From positions 1 to 64,000 of the forward strand of contig JAFIEP010000029.1 of the NCBI GenBank assembly GCA_020832495.1: a DNA stretch of 64,000 bases, written 5' to 3'. The position numbers and the translations under genes are program-made. Under the pieces are notes generated by a model that saw only the letters and a program-made list of their open reading frames with translations, did not search any database and was not told the DNA's origin. Each line of letters opens with the position of its first letter. Positions within the stretch are counted from its first letter, which is position 1. This DNA comes from Acidimicrobiia bacterium. GTDB lineage: Bacteria; Actinomycetota; Acidimicrobiia; Acidimicrobiales; Acidimicrobilacustridaceae. This document shows, one piece after another, positions 1,116 through 11,918 of the stretch.

Positions 1116-2665
1116 GCACCGAAGCAACCAGTCGCACAGGCCGGGTTTCGCTGTGGGGGCGATCCTTCGGGCGTGCCCGGGATGACGGTGGTGCCGTCAT
1201 CCCGCTGACGGCCCTCGGGATCGTGGCGCTGGTGGCGTTCGTCGGGTTCGCCGTGGATGTCGGTTTGGCGTTCAACGAGCGTCGACAGGAGCAGGCTGCC
1301 GTCGACATGGCCACGCTGTCGGTGGTCCGCCTGGCGTTCGATGACACAGGTGTCACCACCGACGACCTGTTCGACGAGGCGATCAGGTTGAGCCTGGCCA
1401 ACATGGACGGTTCGGTATCCGAAGCAGAGTGGCGTGAGCGCTTCCTGGAGTGCACCGATCCCGGCCGGGTGGCCGCTGGCTACACGGTTCCGCTCACGAC
1501 GAGCGACGGGGTTGTGGATTGCATCAGCGTGACGCCGGATGTGAGTGCGTTGAGGATGCGACTCCCCGACACCGACGTGCAGACGGTCTTCGCATCGGTG
1601 GTCGGTTTCGACAACTGGACGGTCTCGGCGTTCGCCGAGGCGGGACTTGTCGAGCGCGCTGCTCCCAACATCATCCCGTTCGCCATGAGCGCCTCGGGCG
1701 AAGCGGCTGGCCGCTACTGCCTGCGGCAGCCCCAGGGCAACAACAACGCGAACACCCCGGCAGCCGAGGATTGCAGCGGGATGTTCCAAGGCAACACGGG
1801 TGTGATCCAGATCGTGCGTCCCTCGTGGGGTGCTCCACCGCACAACTGCAACGGTGGGTTCGCTGCGGTCATCGAACGCAACATCGCCCAGGGCATCGAT
1901 CACATGCTGTCGGCCTACCCCGAGACGAACGTGGTGACTCAGGAGACGTGTCCCAACGTCACGGCCGGACTGAGTCCGAACGAGATCAGCACCGACACCG
2001 GCCAGAACAACATGAACTCCGTCGAACAGGGCCTGATCCTGCGCGGCGACGGCTACTACGAAGACGGTGGGCCGGCCCGGCTGAAGCGGGGGCCGTTCCC
2101 AAAGACCCAGTTCATCAAGTCGCAGGCCCTCGATGACAAGCCGCTGTGGGAGTTCATCGACACCACGTTGAACTTCGGTGTCGACGTGCCTGCATCGTGC
2201 TCGCCGGCGTTCGTGGTCTCGCTGGCCCCAGCGGACTACCGCGTCGGTCTCGACAACTGTTTCGCCGAGTACTACAGCGGCAACTACGACCACCACCTCT
2301 TCACCGAGGAACTGATGGAGAGCCCGCGATTCACGTGGGTGCCAGAGTCGATGGGCGACCTGAGTACAGGCACCGGGTTCTTCTGGTTCCGTATTCAGCA
2401 GTTCCGGCCAGTTTTCATCCAGACGGTGTACTACAACACCGGCAACTGTTGGTGGGGCGTCAACCCGGGCATGGCCAATCAGATGCACAACGAGGGAACA
2501 TGTTGGCAGCTCCCGTCGGCCATCTCGACTGCCTCGGCCAACAGCAACATTTCGTTGCGTGGACTTGGCTCTTACTACTTCCAGTTCGAGATGCTCCCAG
2601 AGGAAATTCTCGAACGCGGCGTGACCGCTGGGGGTCAGGCCAGCGAGTTGGCATTGATTCGCTGA
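1112..2665 (+). CDS. TadG-like (Tad domain) surface protein, copy 1
   Basis: 517 aa. An N-terminal Tad/TadG-like segment (about residues 28-75) contains one hydrophobic helix, ALGIVALVAFVGFAVDVGLA, followed by FNERRQEQAAVD, where family members carry a prepilin-like helix that anchors a periplasmic or extracellular domain. The remaining 440 residues form a large ectodomain with about a dozen Cys. Most Cys motifs (CLRQP, CSGM, CNGG, RVGLDNCF) recur in copy 2, which suggests disulfides. The start is the ATG at 1112, overlapping the tadE-like stop, rather than a TTG nine bases earlier. The likely role is pilus-associated adhesion or surface display, inferred from the family and operon; the ectodomain itself matches nothing I recognise. 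Confidence 0.85.
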   Translation: MSTEATSRTGRVSLWGRSFGRARDDGGAVIPLTALGIVALVAFVGFAVDVGLAFNERRQEQAAVDMATLSVVRLAFDDTGVTTDDLFDEAIRLSLANMDGSVSEAEWRERFLECTDPGRVAAGYTVPLTTSDGVVDCISVTPDVSALRMRLPDTDVQTVFASVVGFDNWTVSAFAEAGLVERAAPNIIPFAMSASGEAAGRYCLRQPQGNNNANTPAAEDCSGMFQGNTGVIQIVRPSWGAPPHNCNGGFAAVIERNIAQGIDHMLSAYPETNVVTQETCPNVTAGLSPNEISTDTGQNNMNSVEQGLILRGDGYYEDGGPARLKRGPFPKTQFIKSQALDDKPLWEFIDTTLNFGVDVPASCSPAFVVSLAPADYRVGLDNCFAEYYSGNYDHHLFTEELMESPRFTWVPESMGDLSTGTGFFWFRIQQFRPVFIQTVYYNTGNCWWGVNPGMANQMHNEGTCWQLPSAISTASANSNISLRGLGSYYFQFEMLPEEILERGVTAGGQASELALIR

Positions 2666-3293
2666 TACGCTAAAGGTCTGGATCGTTCCGGCGGTTCGTA
2701 CTGCGCCGCTCGAGGGTGTTGCCAAGGATACGTGAGACGCTGCTGCTCCCCTGAGTGTGCGGGCAGCAATAGAGCGTAATTCTGAGCCCAAATTGAAGCG
2801 GGCCGATGCTCCTGACCGGCGCCCACTCGTTTCAGCGGCCTGTCAGTGATGCTGTTTGCCTGTCCGCACCAGCGTGGGCGTCGTGGCTACGGCCCTCGGT
2901 TGCGGTCGGTGGCGAACAATTGGGTGGGCTGCAAACGGGTGCGGATCGAGTGCCGGGGCGCGCCCCCCGCCGATCTCAACTGGTGGGAGACCACCCGTCC
3001 TCATCGTCGTCTTTCGGTTGGTCCTGTCCATGGTCATGTCGCGGTCGGATGCCCTGTGCAGCCGACGGTGTGGTGTGTCGGCCGCGGCGCTAATGGTCGA
3101 GCTGACACCGCTGACCTCGAGGTGCGTGATACCGGTCGGGCCAGGCACGCGCGGCGCGTGGGTCGACGACACACGCGAACGGTCACAATCAGGTAAGAAA
3201 GAACCGAATAGGGGTTCCAATCCCGGTCCGGCGTTGCTAAGGTGAACGCCAGTGGAGGGCGGCTCCACGATGTAATCCGGTGAAGGCGACACC
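2666..3293 (+). other. 628-nt intergenic region between the two tadE/tadG-like pairs
   Basis: I see no convincing gene here. Open frames exist on both strands, but they overlap one another, are Arg-, Pro- and Ser-rich, and show no recognisable domain, so I treat them as GC-rich shadows. The first 150 bases are less GC-rich than the coding flanks. The right end carries a possible promoter (see next entry) and the leader of the second pair, with a GAAGG ribosome-binding sequence about 10 nt before the ATG at 3294. No strong hairpin follows the stop at 2665, so readthrough from pair 1 into pair 2 is possible. Confidence 0.5.
3215..3243 (+). promoter_or_regulatory. possible promoter for the second tadE/tadG-like pair
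   Basis: TTCCAA at 3215-3220 and TAAGGT at 3238-3243 are spaced 17 nt apart, which fits a SigA-type -35/-10 pair with a poor -35. A start site near 3250 would give a leader of about 44 nt before the ATG at 3294, with GAAGG in the ribosome-binding position. This is a pattern match only. Confidence 0.35.
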
Positions 3294-3809
3294 ATGGAGC
3301 GAAGGCGGATGATAGGTGGCGGCGCGAGTAGTTCGGCGAGCCTGCGAACCCCGAGGTGCCGCTATCCTGCGGCCGACGACCGAGGTGCGGCCATGGTGGA
3401 GTTCGCCATCGTCATGCCGTTCTTGGTGATCCTGCTCTTCGGGATCTTCGAGTTCGGGTATGTGTTCGGCCAGCACCTCGACGTTCGTCACGGTGCCAGG
3501 GAAGGCTCCCGACTGGCCAGCGTGAACTTCGCTCCGACCTCGGAGCAGGGCGAGGCTCGGTCGGCGGCGTTGGTTGCCGAGATCTGCAATGGCATGTCGC
3601 TGGTGACCGAATCCACCGTGAGCCTGGCCTCCGACCAGGCACCTGCTGTGTCGCAGGGTGACTTCGTGGTGGTGACGGTGCAATCGGAGGCCGAACAGGT
3701 CACCGGATTCTTTTCACCCGTGCTGAGCGACCTGACCCTCCGGAGTGCGGTCGAGATGCGAGTCGAGGCGGCGCTCGAGTACTCGATTCCCTACGAAGGA
3801 ACCTGCTGA
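3294..3809 (+). CDS. TadE-like pilus assembly protein, copy 2
   Basis: 171 aa, homologous to the protein at 561-1115 over its whole length. It has the same DDRGAAMVEFA signature, the same hydrophobic helix running into LLFGIFEFGY, the same DVRHGAREGSRLA block, and the same EAEQVTGFFSPVL ending of the extracellular domain (SAPAEQVTGFFSAVL in copy 1). It therefore arose by duplication, but has diverged considerably outside those blocks. The TGA overlaps the ATG of the following TadG-like gene by 1 nt, so the pair organisation is duplicated as a unit. Anchoring is by one N-terminal transmembrane helix. The role is inferred from the family: minor pilin or pilus-associated protein. Confidence 0.85.
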   Translation: MERRRMIGGGASSSASLRTPRCRYPAADDRGAAMVEFAIVMPFLVILLFGIFEFGYVFGQHLDVRHGAREGSRLASVNFAPTSEQGEARSAALVAEICNGMSLVTESTVSLASDQAPAVSQGDFVVVTVQSEAEQVTGFFSPVLSDLTLRSAVEMRVEAALEYSIPYEGTC

Positions 3810-7056: not shown

Positions 7057-8166
7057 TCAGCCCACGTCGTCGGGTCGGTGCCGGCGGCTGGCGGTGGCTT
7101 CGGGCGGCAGGTACACGGGCTGGCCGTCGGTCGGGGGCGGCGGGGTCCACACGGCGGAGGTGGTGTCCGGTGCATCGGCGTAGAACTGCGCGTACCACTT
7201 GCGGAACTTGAGGAAGGGCGGGTCGGTGTCGGCCAACGCTGGCCGCGTGAGATGCGCCTTGTTCTCCCAGATGGGCCGGTCCTCCTCGAGTTGCTTGCAC
7301 ACCTCCGAGATGAAGGCCTTGCCCACCCCCGAGGTGGCGTCGCCGTCGTCGAGTCGGCGTACCTTGAAGCTGAAGCGCACCTCGCAGCGGGTGGCGTCGA
7401 CGGGGATGGCGGCGCCGATGAGGAAGGTGTCGACGATCCCGCTGAAGCGGGTGATGCCCATGCCCGGACCGTGGTTGTCCACGTCGATGCGACCGTCCAC
7501 CACCCCACGTGGGGTGGGGAACCGCTGGATCGACCGCATGCTGGCCACGTGCCCCTCGGTGTCGTAGGACTGGATCTCGGGCACGATCTCGGTGTTGTGC
7601 ACGTAGCGGAAGTGGGGGCCGTCCACCGCGTTCTCGCCCAATTCCTGGGTGGCTGCGGCCACGCTGAAGTGGCGGGTGGACCAGTCGGTGAAGGCCGGGT
7701 CGTGGAGTTCTTCGGGTTCGTGCAGCGGCCAGTGTGGTTCGTCGCCGTGGGGATGGAACCAGGCATAGAGGAAGTGGTCACCCAGTTCGACGAGGGGGTA
7801 GCTGCCGATGGTGGCCCGGGCGTTGGTGCGCTCCGAGTAGGGGATGGCGGTGTTGGTGCCGTCGCCGCAGAACCGCCAGCCGTGGAACGGGCAGGCCAGG
7901 TCGGTGCCGATGACCGATCCACCGTGGCCCAGATGGGCCCCGAGGTGGGGACAGAAGGCGTCGTTGAGGTGGGCAACGCCCTCCTCGTCGCGCCACAGCA
8001 CCAGATGGCGGCCGAAGTAGTAGCGGGGGAGAACCTGGCCGCGCTCGAGTTCGTGCGACCAGGCCACCTGGAACCACCCGAACGGAATGCCGAAGGGGTA
8101 GCGGCCCTCGGGTTCGGTTGCCGGCGGCGCCGTGGCGGCCGCTCCGTTCGGGGTGGTGGTGGCCAT
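7057..8166 (-). CDS. Rieske [2Fe-2S] non-heme iron oxygenase, KshA/DAF-36-like
   Basis: 369 aa terminal oxygenase component. The Rieske cluster motif is complete: C72-x-H74 (FCPHLGAHLGHGG) and C92-x2-H95 (CPFHGW). The catalytic mononuclear iron site is recognisable at GENAVDGPHFRYVHN, with D182, H185 and H190. The sequence style (PYSERT, then FRYVHN) resembles the steroid-acting group that includes 3-ketosteroid 9-alpha-hydroxylase KshA and cholesterol 7-desaturase DAF-36. Substrate and redox partner are not shown; a ferredoxin/reductase pair lies 11 kb away. The ATG at 8166 follows a TAGACT box by 6 nt. A KstR-like operator sits just upstream, so sterol-linked regulation is likely. It follows the amidohydrolase gene, whose stop overlaps that operator. 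Confidence 0.85.
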   Translation of the reverse strand: MATTTPNGAAATAPPATEPEGRYPFGIPFGWFQVAWSHELERGQVLPRYYFGRHLVLWRDEEGVAHLNDAFCPHLGAHLGHGGSVIGTDLACPFHGWRFCGDGTNTAIPYSERTNARATIGSYPLVELGDHFLYAWFHPHGDEPHWPLHEPEELHDPAFTDWSTRHFSVAAATQELGENAVDGPHFRYVHNTEIVPEIQSYDTEGHVASMRSIQRFPTPRGVVDGRIDVDNHGPGMGITRFSGIVDTFLIGAAIPVDATRCEVRFSFKVRRLDDGDATSGVGKAFISEVCKQLEEDRPIWENKAHLTRPALADTDPPFLKFRKWYAQFYADAPDTTSAVWTPPPPTDGQPVYLPPEATASRRHRPDDVG

Positions 8167-8172
8167 GCCGCC

Positions 8173-8178
8173 AGTCTA
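8173..8178 (-). promoter_or_regulatory. -10-like box for the Rieske oxygenase gene (leaderless)
   Basis: On the minus strand TAGACT ends 6 nt before the ATG at 8166, which predicts transcription from the start codon. The KstR-like operator begins 10 bp upstream of the box, where a bound repressor would block polymerase. Confidence 0.55.
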
Positions 8179-8187
8179 GGGCAGGAC

Positions 8188-8201
8188 TAGAACGTGTTCT
8201 A
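8188..8201. promoter_or_regulatory. KstR-like operator TAGAACGTGTTCTA
   Basis: The 14-mer matches TnnAACnnGTTnnA, the published consensus for the TetR-family cholesterol regulator KstR of mycobacteria and rhodococci. Including flanks it is CTAGAAC-GT-GTTCTAG, a perfect 7-bp dyad. It lies 22 bp upstream of the Rieske start and overlaps the stop codon of the amidohydrolase gene. No kstR gene is in the window. Confidence 0.65.
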
Positions 8202-9083
8202 GCGCGAGGTCTGGTCCGTGGAGGTGAGTCCGAGCACGTGCTCGGCGTTGTGGCGGAGGAACTTGGGCCAGACCTCGTCGCGGAAGGGCACCTGGGGCAG
8301 TTCGGCGAAGATGCGTTCCAGTGAGAGGCCCATGGGGAAGTAGCCCCCGTAGAGCACCTTGTCGGCCCCGCGGGTGTTGGCGTAGTCGACGATGGCCTTC
8401 GGGTAGTAGCGAGGGGCGAACGCCGAGGTCGAGTAGTAGAGGTTCGGCCACTTGATCATGAGCTTCACCGCCAACTCCTCCCAGGGCTCGGCACCGTGGC
8501 GCATCACGAAGGTGAGTTCGGGGAAGAACCAGCAGACCTCGTCGATCAACTCCACGTGCTGGCAGGCCATCGGCACTCGCGGGCCGGGAACCCCGCAGCA
8601 CACGAAGATCGGGATCTCCAACTCACAGCAGGCGGCGTAGATGGGGTAGGCCCGTTTGTCATTGATGGGCACCTGAGGGTTGCCCCCGGCGGGGAACCAC
8701 TGAGCGGCCACGACGCCGTGCTGGGTGGCCGCCGCCTTCAGGTCGGCCACCGCCGCCATGCCCCGGTTGGGGTCCACCGAGGCGCAGGGCAGGAAGCGGT
8801 CGGGGAAGCGTGCGAGCGCCGCGGGTTCGGGGCCGTCGATGCGCCACCCGACGAGTGCCTGGGCGATGCCGTAGTGGTCCATCTCGGCCACGACCGCGTC
8901 GACCGGGTCGCCCTCGAAATCGCCGGGGACGTCGTTGAACATGTAGCCGGCCGGCATCTCCAGCTCGTCGAGGCTCTCCCGGTCCCGCAGTTGTGGTCGC
9001 AGGAACTTGTACCACGAGGTCCGATCCCCCGAGGGGATGCCCAACATGGTGTCGATGACGCCGAGGTCGGTGGGGAAGCTCAC
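8199..9083 (-). CDS. amidohydrolase-fold (Amidohydro_2/ACMSD-like) protein with degenerate metal site
   Basis: 294 aa, a TIM-barrel protein of the amidohydrolase 2 group, usually decarboxylases or hydrolases acting on carboxylated or ring-derived intermediates. Order of landmarks: strand 1 VIDTMLG (residues 9-15), central CGVPGPRVP, then VMRHGAEPWEE (H196), then VLYGGYFP (243-250). The usual N-terminal HxH is absent (D11-T-M-L). The Asp of the usual GSDFP strand-8 motif is replaced by Tyr248, and the strand-5 His by Cys. Only H196 remains, so metal-independent or altered chemistry is likely. GTG start at 9083 with TACACT 6 nt upstream. A KstR-like operator overlaps that box. It precedes the Rieske gene by 32 nt on the same strand, suggesting a shared pathway. 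Confidence 0.75.
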   Translation of the reverse strand: MSFPTDLGVIDTMLGIPSGDRTSWYKFLRPQLRDRESLDELEMPAGYMFNDVPGDFEGDPVDAVVAEMDHYGIAQALVGWRIDGPEPAALARFPDRFLPCASVDPNRGMAAVADLKAAATQHGVVAAQWFPAGGNPQVPINDKRAYPIYAACCELEIPIFVCCGVPGPRVPMACQHVELIDEVCWFFPELTFVMRHGAEPWEELAVKLMIKWPNLYYSTSAFAPRYYPKAIVDYANTRGADKVLYGGYFPMGLSLERIFAELPQVPFRDEVWPKFLRHNAEHVLGLTSTDQTSR

Positions 9084-9089
9084 GTCCGA

Positions 9090-9095
9090 AGTGTA
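9090..9095 (-). promoter_or_regulatory. -10-like box for the amidohydrolase-fold gene (leaderless)
   Basis: TACACT on the minus strand ends 6 nt before the GTG at 9083. The KstR-like site at 9094-9107 overlaps its upstream end, a classic repressor position. Confidence 0.5.
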
Positions 9096-9107
9096 GAACG
9101 TGTTGCA
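9094..9107. promoter_or_regulatory. second KstR-like operator TAGAACGTGTTGCA
   Basis: Matches TnnAACnnGTTnnA at every fixed position and shares the TAGAACGTGTT core with the site at 8188-8201. It overlaps the -10-like box of the amidohydrolase-fold gene, 10 bp upstream of its GTG. Confidence 0.6.
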
Positions 9108-9519: not shown

Positions 9520-10917
9520 GTGACGATCACGGCACGAGACACGACCGCCACCACACTGCCGTCCGCCGACCCGACGACCGCCACCGAGGTTCCGGTGGAT
9601 CTCCCATCGCTCGGCACACGACTCGAGGCCACTCGTCGACTCACCGAGCAGTTGGCCGAGCCCCTCTCACCCGAGGACCAGACGGCGCAGTCGATGGCCG
9701 ATGTCAGCCCGACCAAGTGGCACCGGGCGCACACGACGTGGTTCTTCGAGACCTTTGTCCTGGCGACATTCGTTGCCGACTATGTGCCGCATCATCCCGA
9801 GTTCGGCTACCTGTTCAACTCCTACTACGAGCAGGTCGGCCCGCGACACCCGCGCGCCGCTCGAGGTGTGATCACCCGGCCGGGTGCCGCCGAGGTCGGC
9901 GCCTACCGCCGACACGTCGATGCGGCCCTGGCGGAGGCCATCGACGATGGCCTGCCCCCCAGAGCGCTGGAGCTCGTCGAGTTGGGCATCCACCACGAGC
10001 AGCAGCACCAGGAGTTGTTGCTCATGGACATCAAGCATGTGTTGAGCTGCAACGCCCTCGATCCCTGTTACCTGGCACTGGACCACTCCCCGGCGGTCGA
10101 CATCAACGGGTCGGTGCCGGCGGGGCAGGCGGGCGGTTCGCCTGGTTGGGAGCCCTTCGCCGAGGGACTCGTCGAGATCGGCCAGCCGACCGATCCCGCC
10201 ACCGGCTTCTGCTTCGACAATGAGCGGCCGCGGCACCCGGTCCACCTCCGGGCCTACGAACTGGCCGACCGCCTGCTGAACGTGGACGAGGTGCTCGCCT
10301 TCATCGACGACGGCGGCTACCACCGACCCGAGCTGTGGTTGTCCGACGGCTGGGCCACGGTGTGTACCGAGGGCTGGCAGCACCCGCTCTACTGGCAGCA
10401 CGACGACAACGGCTGGGCCGTGTTCACGCTCGGTGGACGCCGCCCGCTGCGGGCCGACGAACCGGTGGTCCACCTCAGCTACTACGAGGCCGATGCCATC
10501 GCACGATGGGCCGGTGCGCGTCTTCCGACCGAAGCCGAGTGGGAACACGCAGCGGCGGCCGAGTCGTTCGACACGGGCCTGCTCGATCTCGAGGTGCTCC
10601 ATCCGCGCCCACCGACGCCCCGGCGGACCAACGGTGCGGCGGGCAGCGGTGCGGCGGGCAGCGGCGACGGTTGCCGCCAGCTCTCGGGGGAGGTGTGGGA
10701 GTGGACCGCCAGCCCGTACGTGTCCTACCCCGGCTTCGAGGTCGCTCCCGGAGCGGTGGGTGAGTACAACGGCAAGTTCATGGTGAACCAGCACGTGCTG
10801 CGCGGTGGATCCTGTGTGACGCCACCCGGGCACGTGCGGGCCACCTATCGGAACTTCTTCCCGCCGTCGGCGCGGTGGGCCTTCAGCGGCTGTCGCTTGG
10901 CGCGGGACCTGCGGTGA
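9520..10917 (+). CDS. egtB: ergothioneine sulfoxide synthase EgtB
   Basis: 465 aa non-heme iron enzyme that joins hercynine with a thiol donor (gamma-Glu-Cys or Cys, depending on clade) using O2, giving a hercynyl sulfoxide. The N-terminal DinB-like helical domain contains the iron ligands H68 (WHRAH) and H159-x3-H163-x-E165 (HHEQQHQE). The C-terminal formylglycine-generating-enzyme/C-type-lectin fold ends in GGSCVTPPGHVRATYRNFFPP and FSGCRLARD. The GTG at 9520 is preferred to upstream starts because TAGGGAGG (9507-9514) lies 5 nt before it. A TAGCAT box at 9450-9455 could give a 60-nt leader. The stop overlaps egtD by 4 nt (GTGA). egtA, egtC and egtE are not in the window, so the thiol donor cannot be told from context. 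Confidence 0.93.
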   Translation: MTITARDTTATTLPSADPTTATEVPVDLPSLGTRLEATRRLTEQLAEPLSPEDQTAQSMADVSPTKWHRAHTTWFFETFVLATFVADYVPHHPEFGYLFNSYYEQVGPRHPRAARGVITRPGAAEVGAYRRHVDAALAEAIDDGLPPRALELVELGIHHEQQHQELLLMDIKHVLSCNALDPCYLALDHSPAVDINGSVPAGQAGGSPGWEPFAEGLVEIGQPTDPATGFCFDNERPRHPVHLRAYELADRLLNVDEVLAFIDDGGYHRPELWLSDGWATVCTEGWQHPLYWQHDDNGWAVFTLGGRRPLRADEPVVHLSYYEADAIARWAGARLPTEAEWEHAAAAESFDTGLLDLEVLHPRPPTPRRTNGAAGSGAAGSGDGCRQLSGEVWEWTASPYVSYPGFEVAPGAVGEYNGKFMVNQHVLRGGSCVTPPGHVRATYRNFFPPSARWAFSGCRLARDLR

Positions 10918-11918
10918 GTTCCACCAACGGATCCTTGCCCGGTGGCGAGCGGTCCGAACCGCCCGTTGACGTGCACCTGGCCGCTGGCGACTGGCAGGCC
11001 ACCTTGGTCGACGACCTGCGGGTCAGCCTCCTCGAGAACCCTCGACGGGTGGCGCCCGTGTGGTTCTACGACGAGCGGGGCAGTGAACTGTTCGAGCAGA
11101 TCACCGAACTGGCGGAGTACTACCCGACGCGTGCCGAGCGGGAGCTATTGGAGCGCCACGCCCCCGATCTGCGCTCGTTGGGAGCCGACACACTCGTCGA
11201 GTTGGGGTCGGGCAGCTCGGAGAAGACCTCGTTCCTGCTCGACGCGCTCCACGGTGGCGGCGACCTCGGTCGGTACGTGCCGTTCGATGTGAGCGAGGAG
11301 ATGCTGCGGGGGGCGGCGACCAGCGTGGCGGCACGCTACCCGGCGCTCGACGTGCACGGCGTGGTCGGCGACTTCCACCGTCACCTCCACACGTTGCCGC
11401 TCGATGGCTCGACGATGGTGGCCTTCTTGGGGAGCACCATCGGCAACCTGCGTCCGGAGCAGCGGGCATCGTTCCTCACCGACCTGTACGCCACACTCGA
11501 ACCGGGCGACCATCTCCTCTTGGGGGTCGACCTGGTCAAGGATCCGGCGGTGCTGGTGGCAGCCTACGACGACGCCGACGACGTCACCGCCGAGTTCAAC
11601 CGGAACGCGCTGCGGGTGCTCAACGCCGAGGTCGGAGCGGATTTCGACCCCGACGGGTTCGACCACGTGGCCACCTGGAACGCTGACCAGGAGTGGATCG
11701 AGATGCGGCTGCGGGCCACCACTGCACAGCGGGTCTCGATCCCGCCGCTCGAAACGACCATTGGCTTCGATGTCGGCGACGATCTCCTCACCGAGATCAG
11801 CGCCAAGTTCCGACTGGCACCCCTGGCGGCAGAACTGCACTCGCTGGGGTGGGACACCATCCAGCACTGGACGACGGAGGGCGACACGTTCGCACTCGTG
11901 GTGGCAGGTCGTCGGTGA
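10914..11918 (+). CDS. egtD: L-histidine N-alpha-methyltransferase EgtD
   Basis: 334 aa, transfers three methyl groups from S-adenosylmethionine to histidine, giving hercynine, the substrate of EgtB. The start is the GTG that overlaps the egtB stop (GTGA). Conserved blocks: WFYDERGSELFEQITELAEYYPTR-type sequence (about residues 50-73), the SAM-binding LVELGSGSSEKT (94-105), FLGSTIGN, and a C-terminal segment containing EWIEMRLRA. Length and order match the family (Pfam Methyltransf_33). The pair is transcribed as one unit ending about 30 nt before a convergent small gene. Cytoplasmic. Confidence 0.93.
   Translation: MSSTNGSLPGGERSEPPVDVHLAAGDWQATLVDDLRVSLLENPRRVAPVWFYDERGSELFEQITELAEYYPTRAERELLERHAPDLRSLGADTLVELGSGSSEKTSFLLDALHGGGDLGRYVPFDVSEEMLRGAATSVAARYPALDVHGVVGDFHRHLHTLPLDGSTMVAFLGSTIGNLRPEQRASFLTDLYATLEPGDHLLLGVDLVKDPAVLVAAYDDADDVTAEFNRNALRVLNAEVGADFDPDGFDHVATWNADQEWIEMRLRATTAQRVSIPPLETTIGFDVGDDLLTEISAKFRLAPLAAELHSLGWDTIQHWTTEGDTFALVVAGRR

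Follow-up and report, generated by a model that had tools for sequence, protein, structure and literature searches.

The pair of genes examined here, which encode an amidohydrolase-fold protein and a Rieske oxygenase and lie next to each other on the minus strand of a 64,000-nucleotide stretch of Acidimicrobiia DNA (the window), raises the question of whether an enzyme foreign to the known pathways of steroid-ring degradation can belong, together with a hydroxylase that resembles a steroid-acting type, to a regulon of the KstR kind, and at which point of steroid breakdown the two proteins would act. Using a combination of motif counts, profile searches, phylogeny and structural comparison, we approach this question first from the operators and promoters of the pair, then from the Rieske enzyme, the regulator and the amidohydrolase-fold protein, and lastly from the clusters in which relatives of both genes occur in other phyla.

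Operators and predicted promoters of the gene pair

The preliminary description had placed a KstR-type operator before each of the two genes, and both 14-mers are present: TAGAACGTGTTCTA at 8188-8201 and TAGAACGTGTTGCA at 9094-9107 satisfy the consensus TNNAACNNGTTNNA and are its only matches in the window, as compared with a mean of 0.15 matches in shuffled windows and with two or more matches in 3 of 100 shuffles. Each overlaps or adjoins a -10-like hexamer, as had also been described, and upstream of both genes a hexamer of the form TANNNT lies exactly 6 nt from the start codon, a spacing that would place the start of the transcript on the start codon itself and leads us to predict that both promoters are leaderless (Table 1). 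The operator at 8188-8201 overlaps the stop codon of the amidohydrolase gene (8199-8201) and would therefore also serve as an operator inside a unit of the two genes. The putative operator at 9094-9107 departs from the full palindrome at two positions. Sites of this class show no enrichment in this genome (see below), so that this one needs positional support, which is provided by orthologues that carry perfect operators at the matching place. Outside the pair, window positions 9520-11918 hold two putative ergothioneine biosynthesis genes, one EgtB-like and one EgtD-like, recognized by reading their translations.

Table 1. Positions of the pair, of its putative control elements and of related features on contig C106 of the same genome
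Feature	Position	Strand	Description
Rieske oxygenase, KshA_C family	7057..8166	minus	369 aa, ATG start; Pfam KshA_C 118 bits, Rieske 61 bits
-10-like TAGACT	8173-8178	minus	6 nt before Rieske ATG (8166); TAGACT-GGCGGC-ATG; direct reading
Perfect KstR-type operator (putative)	8188-8201	minus	TAGAACACGTTCTA on gene strand, perfect palindrome; upstream of Rieske gene
Amidohydrolase-fold protein	8199..9083	minus	294 aa, GTG start; Amidohydro_2
-10-like TACACT	9090-9095	minus	6 nt before amidohydrolase GTG (9083); TACACT-TCGGAC-GTG; overlaps operator end; direct reading
Degenerate KstR-type operator (putative)	9094-9107	minus	TGCAACACGTTCTA on gene strand; upstream of amidohydrolase gene
KstR-like TetR repressor gene	C106:4626-5282		same genome as the window
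Operator before acyl-CoA dehydrogenase (FadE) gene	C106:14031		
Operator before gene with ChsH2 C-terminal OB-fold	C106:18325		next come a second protein of this kind and an Ltp2-like gene

The arrangement recurs in related bacteria. With amidohydrolase orthologues taken from 80 loci of the genome collection and Rieske orthologues from the window's own family, the two genes were found adjacent in 17 Acidimicrobiia loci, 12 of which carry an operator (zero or one mismatch) at most 160 bp upstream of the amidohydrolase gene, and several of these orthologue operators end 10 nt before the start, which is the place of the degenerate site at 9094-9107. In Aquihabitans sp. G128, both genes of the pair are accompanied by an operator and lie about 14 kb from KstR, in a stretch that also holds Ltp-like, Ltp2-like, ChsH2-like, FadE and CoA-ligase genes. 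Tandem amidohydrolase paralogues that stand without a Rieske gene mostly have no operator.

Several further arrangements were observed in the collection. At G033:C3:210710-220600 (L253), two amidohydrolase-Rieske pairs lie within 10 kb, each with its own perfect operator, and the loci L110, L113, L117, L107 and similar ones from other Actinomycetota hold two to four paralogous amidohydrolases in tandem, without an operator, some of these arrays also with a CoA-transferase gene. In relatives, genes resembling wax ester synthase/DGAT and a gene for a beta-lactamase-family esterase turn up repeatedly in the neighbourhood of the pair (L253:17180-18592, L252:5813-8611, L249:7877-9385) and are perhaps related to sterol esters.

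The Rieske enzyme in relation to KshA

The Rieske protein shares with KshA, the oxygenase of 3-ketosteroid 9-alpha-hydroxylase, its Rieske and KshA_C domains and, in the alignment, the D-H-H iron-site pattern; it is the sole KshA_C match in the window's genome, and its best PDB matches are KshA oxygenases. These likenesses, and the place of kshA3 in the KstR regulon of Rhodococcus ruber (PMC8228715), would fit a true KshA, in which case the pair would serve the breakdown of the rings under KstR, like kshA of rhodococci and mycobacteria. The phylogeny, however, argues otherwise. The window's protein falls within a separate, well supported clade of Acidimicrobiia (98/96), whereas the characterised KshA cluster with Myxococcota Rieske proteins (100/99), and a topology that unites the window's protein with characterised KshA in one clade was rejected by the AU test (p=0.003); one clade with the alphaproteobacterial partner Rieske proteins was not rejected (p=0.08). 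In addition, searches of the draft genome for HsaA (E 1e-60) and for HsaC and HsaD (E 1e-30) gave no match. Taken together, the rejected KshA clade and the lack of HsaA, HsaC and HsaD matches make it unlikely that the enzyme is a 9-alpha-hydroxylase. The resemblance to steroid-acting types noted earlier is thus borne out as far as the likeness to KshA goes, but not as membership in the characterised KshA clade.

The KstR-like regulator and its candidate sites

A regulator that could recognize the operators is encoded elsewhere in the same genome, a 4.46-Mb draft MAG of 147 contigs that is 96.9% complete. A search with the KstR profile NF033703, an NCBIfam equivalog, returned 24 TetR-type matches, most of them weak, and one strong match at C106:4719-5267 (144.9 bits, E 4.8e-42; next best TetR, E 4e-13), so that the KstR orthologue for which the preliminary description had advised a search has one clear candidate. 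Its best PDB matches are the KstR structures 5ua2 and 3mnl, and in the printed alignment its helix-turn-helix segment, GGYEAVQMRDVAARADVALGTIYRYFSSKDHLL, shares 27 of 33 residues with M. tuberculosis KstR. Because its score lies under the curated cut-off of 280 bits, we name this regulator KstR-like rather than KstR.

The loose consensus alone is weakly informative, being found at 25 places genome-wide versus 11 for the reversed control, and sites with up to two mismatches show no enrichment (46 forward versus 129 control places). We therefore rejected the loose consensus as proof and place weight only on the full palindrome and on conservation. The full palindrome, TAGAACNNGTTCTA, occurs twice in the genome, at the window site and at C106:14031, and not once in the control, and sites with one mismatch occur at six places; the chance expectation, estimated from base composition, is about 0.02 for exact and about 1 for one-mismatch sites. 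The genome-wide scan for the 14-mer that had been proposed earlier was hence instructive for the palindrome, which is enriched over the control, and much less so for the consensus. In both promoters on C106 and at C77:2410, operator and -10-like hexamer share a TA, which closes the former and opens the latter, as at 9094. Operators precede steroid-type genes both in this genome, where these are ChsH2-like and FadE genes, and in Myxococcota, where they are hsaA and hsaD. The genome accordingly holds a kstR-like gene together with motif enrichment before steroid genes, the two features whose joint absence the preliminary description had set out as evidence against it.

Two further proposals were considered and rejected: autoregulation of KstR in the window's genome, as no site within three mismatches was found near its own kstR, and the identity of a thiolase on C145 as FadA5, as this protein is matched best in the PDB by thiolases and acetyl-CoA acetyltransferases of the general kind. 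Two more operator-like sequences were observed near genes of the Amidohydro_2 family. At G000:C121:104491 (L044:5492), TAGAACGTGTTCTC lies about 180 bp upstream of the gene L044:4114-5313; in the PDB, the product of this gene is matched best by DitZ (201 bits) and by PtmU3 (123 bits), a diiron oxygenase. At G000:C77:2410 (L042), GAGAACACGTTCTA overlaps a TACACT with 6 nt between it and the ATG of a third gene of the Amidohydro_2 family (2434 to 3648), for which 4dzi is the best PDB match (269 bits) and which is followed by an old-yellow-enzyme family gene.

Across 32 related genomes, whose counts are not independent of one another, 26 with a KstR homologue hold 128 exact operators versus 10 reversed, and five without a homologue hold none; G049 has 15 exact operators and no KstR homologue that we could find, and G051 and G053 have a homologue and no exact site. 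Two of the 15 sites in G049, the genome of L151, stand before the amidohydrolase gene, and this draft may be incomplete or may use another regulator. This co-occurrence and the conserved recognition segment are what suggests a link between KstR homologue and operator. Were the sites instead those of a different TetR that shares the palindrome, the pair might degrade a polycyclic compound other than a steroid, for instance a terpenoid. The 24 TetR-type matches and the case of G049 would be in keeping with a different TetR, as would, for the substrate, the operator-linked gene that resembles DitZ and PtmU3, both enzymes of diterpenoid metabolism. We nevertheless consider this reading clearly improbable, given that a single TetR of the genome is clearly KstR-like, that site enrichment tracks the KstR homologue across genomes and that the Myxococcota sites lie before hsaA and hsaD.

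Like the KstR regulon of Mycobacterium and Rhodococcus, the putative regulon described here couples a TetR repressor homologue with a 14-bp TNNAACNNGTTNNA operator over the promoter, and its putative targets include steroid-pathway genes, a KshA-like gene among them. Unlike that regulon, it is found in Acidimicrobiia and Myxococcota, has a repressor that scores under the curated KstR cut-off, includes no HsaA, HsaC or HsaD detected in the window's genome and counts an amidohydrolase-fold gene among its conserved targets.

The amidohydrolase-fold protein and the possible role of the pair

The second protein of the pair matches Amidohydro_2 (PF04909) at 83.4 bits, against a gathering score of 26.4, and belongs to a family whose members in different phyla are 56-73% identical to it. 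Its AlphaFold model (mean pLDDT 87.5) has the TIM-barrel fold of BB4693 (PDB 3irs; function unknown), which is its best fold match (Z 26.3, rmsd 2.9, 261 residues, 24% identity), and of the Amidohydro_2 decarboxylase/hydratase group; the next matches are decarboxylases, hydratases and LigY (Z 19-22). Unlike the metal-dependent relatives of this family, however, the protein has neither the HxH motif nor the strand-8 Asp. In an alignment of 38 homologous sequences, the HxH after strand 1 is replaced by Asp11-x-Met13 in nearly all, the strand-8 Asp gives way to (A/G)GY(F/W)P in 38 of 38, and His196 alone is invariant among the metal-site positions, so that the canonical metal ligands appear to be largely missing. 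Given this apparent loss of ligands and the fold matches, amide hydrolysis is less likely than a lyase or hydratase-like reaction that needs no metal. A role as replacement for HsaD, by analogy with LigY among the enzymes of lignin degradation, was rejected on the ground that, of the Myxococcota genomes that encode the amidohydrolase, most encode an HsaD homologue as well, several of them beside HsaC. That the protein is a hydrolase that releases bile acids from their conjugates, a role suggested for the Caenibius tardaugens amidohydrolase (EGO55_16305, so named by annotation), whose gene in the side-chain cluster is induced about 21-fold on cholate (PMC12882949), is highly improbable in view of the replacement of most hydrolytic metal ligands in the 38 aligned homologues, of the separate amidase gene that adjoins the pair in Novosphingobium and of the distinct bile salt amidase in Chol11.

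Relatives of both genes occur together in sphingomonads. On pNL2 of Novosphingobium aromaticivorans and p1 of Novosphingobium sp. ES2-1, an adenylate-forming enzyme is followed, in this order, by the amidohydrolase, an SDR (in pNL2), the Rieske protein, an amidase, two Lrp/AsnC regulators and an acyl-CoA dehydrogenase, which is the layout of the bile-salt side-chain clusters described for Sphingobium sp. Chol11 (sclA-scd4AB) and, in part, for C. tardaugens (bsd I) (PMC12882949, PMC8399759). As in the window, an amidohydrolase gene adjoins a KshA-like Rieske gene in these clusters, with CoA ligase and acyl-CoA dehydrogenase alongside; family membership was tested on pNL2 and ES2-1 p1. In the Chol11 cluster, SclA is Nov2c230 and the bile salt amidase Bsa is Nov2c227, so that by gene order Nov2c229 would be the amidohydrolase, and the monooxygenase Nov2c228 was proposed in 2025 to introduce a hydroxyl group at a position of possible use in side-chain degradation (PMC12175502). 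Unlike the window's genome, the sphingomonad genomes tested have no KstR homologue and no such operator, and other regulators are found there.

The amidohydrolase gene also occurs in eight Myxococcota loci, where it is transcribed away from an operon made up of hsaA, hsaE, hsaG, hsaF and two fadE genes, with the operator between hsaA and the amidohydrolase gene; farther out lie genes for a KstR-like TetR (125 bits), a KshA-like Rieske protein, FadD, and Ltp-like and ChsH2-like proteins. A second operator lies 40-65 bp before hsaD in at least four Myxococcota genomes (G038, G039, G042, G046). A literature search on KstR in Myxococcota gave nothing relevant. The preliminary description was right that the second gene is not among the known enzymes of steroid-ring degradation, and the comparison adds that this amidohydrolase recurs in steroid clusters of three phyla.

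We suggest that the pair probably belongs to a KstR-type regulon, in which putative repression by the KstR-like protein, hydroxylation by the Rieske enzyme and a follow-up step by the amidohydrolase-fold protein are joined, with the side chain as the likeliest place of action. In the scheme that we infer for the binding of the operators, the ligand, the substrate, the reaction and the sequence of steps, the KstR-like TetR repressor of C106 would bind both 14-bp palindromes over the -35/-10 region of the predicted leaderless promoters and block transcription until a steroid metabolite releases it; for mycobacterial KstR, the releasing metabolite is a CoA thioester. The Rieske oxygenase would then most likely hydroxylate a steroid substrate, perhaps a sterol, a bile acid or some other steroid-like terpenoid, and the amidohydrolase-fold enzyme, apparently devoid of a metal site, would carry out a follow-up step of the lyase, hydratase or C-C cleavage type. 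Most likely the pair would act in side-chain degradation rather than in the opening of ring B. Counter to this placement, Ltp2-like and ChsH2-like genes are already present in the window's genome and would make a second side-chain cleavage enzyme partly redundant, and the Myxococcota amidohydrolase stands with ring genes, so that a side-chain role is not forced.

A more far-reaching proposal, which we put forward as speculative and rather doubtful, is that of a conserved two-enzyme steroid module in Actinomycetota and Alphaproteobacteria, its amidohydrolase also in Myxococcota. Here the KshA-like hydroxylase would add a hydroxyl and the metal-free amidohydrolase-fold enzyme would break the adjacent C-C bond; this would supply the cleavage step that the bile-salt side-chain pathway of sphingomonads still lacks, with KstR-type control in Acidimicrobiia and Myxococcota.

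The occurrence of relatives of both genes, often with an operator of this type, in steroid clusters of very different bacteria points to an unassigned step in bacterial steroid breakdown. The literature consulted describes side-chain removal in sphingomonads as largely unknown, with an amidohydrolase of guessed role beside a KshA-like monooxygenase. The presence of the same amidohydrolase family under cholesterol-type operators in two other groups of bacteria connects the family with steroid catabolism without recourse to bile salts, carries putative KstR-type regulation outside the mycobacterial group and singles out an enzyme that can be put to the test.
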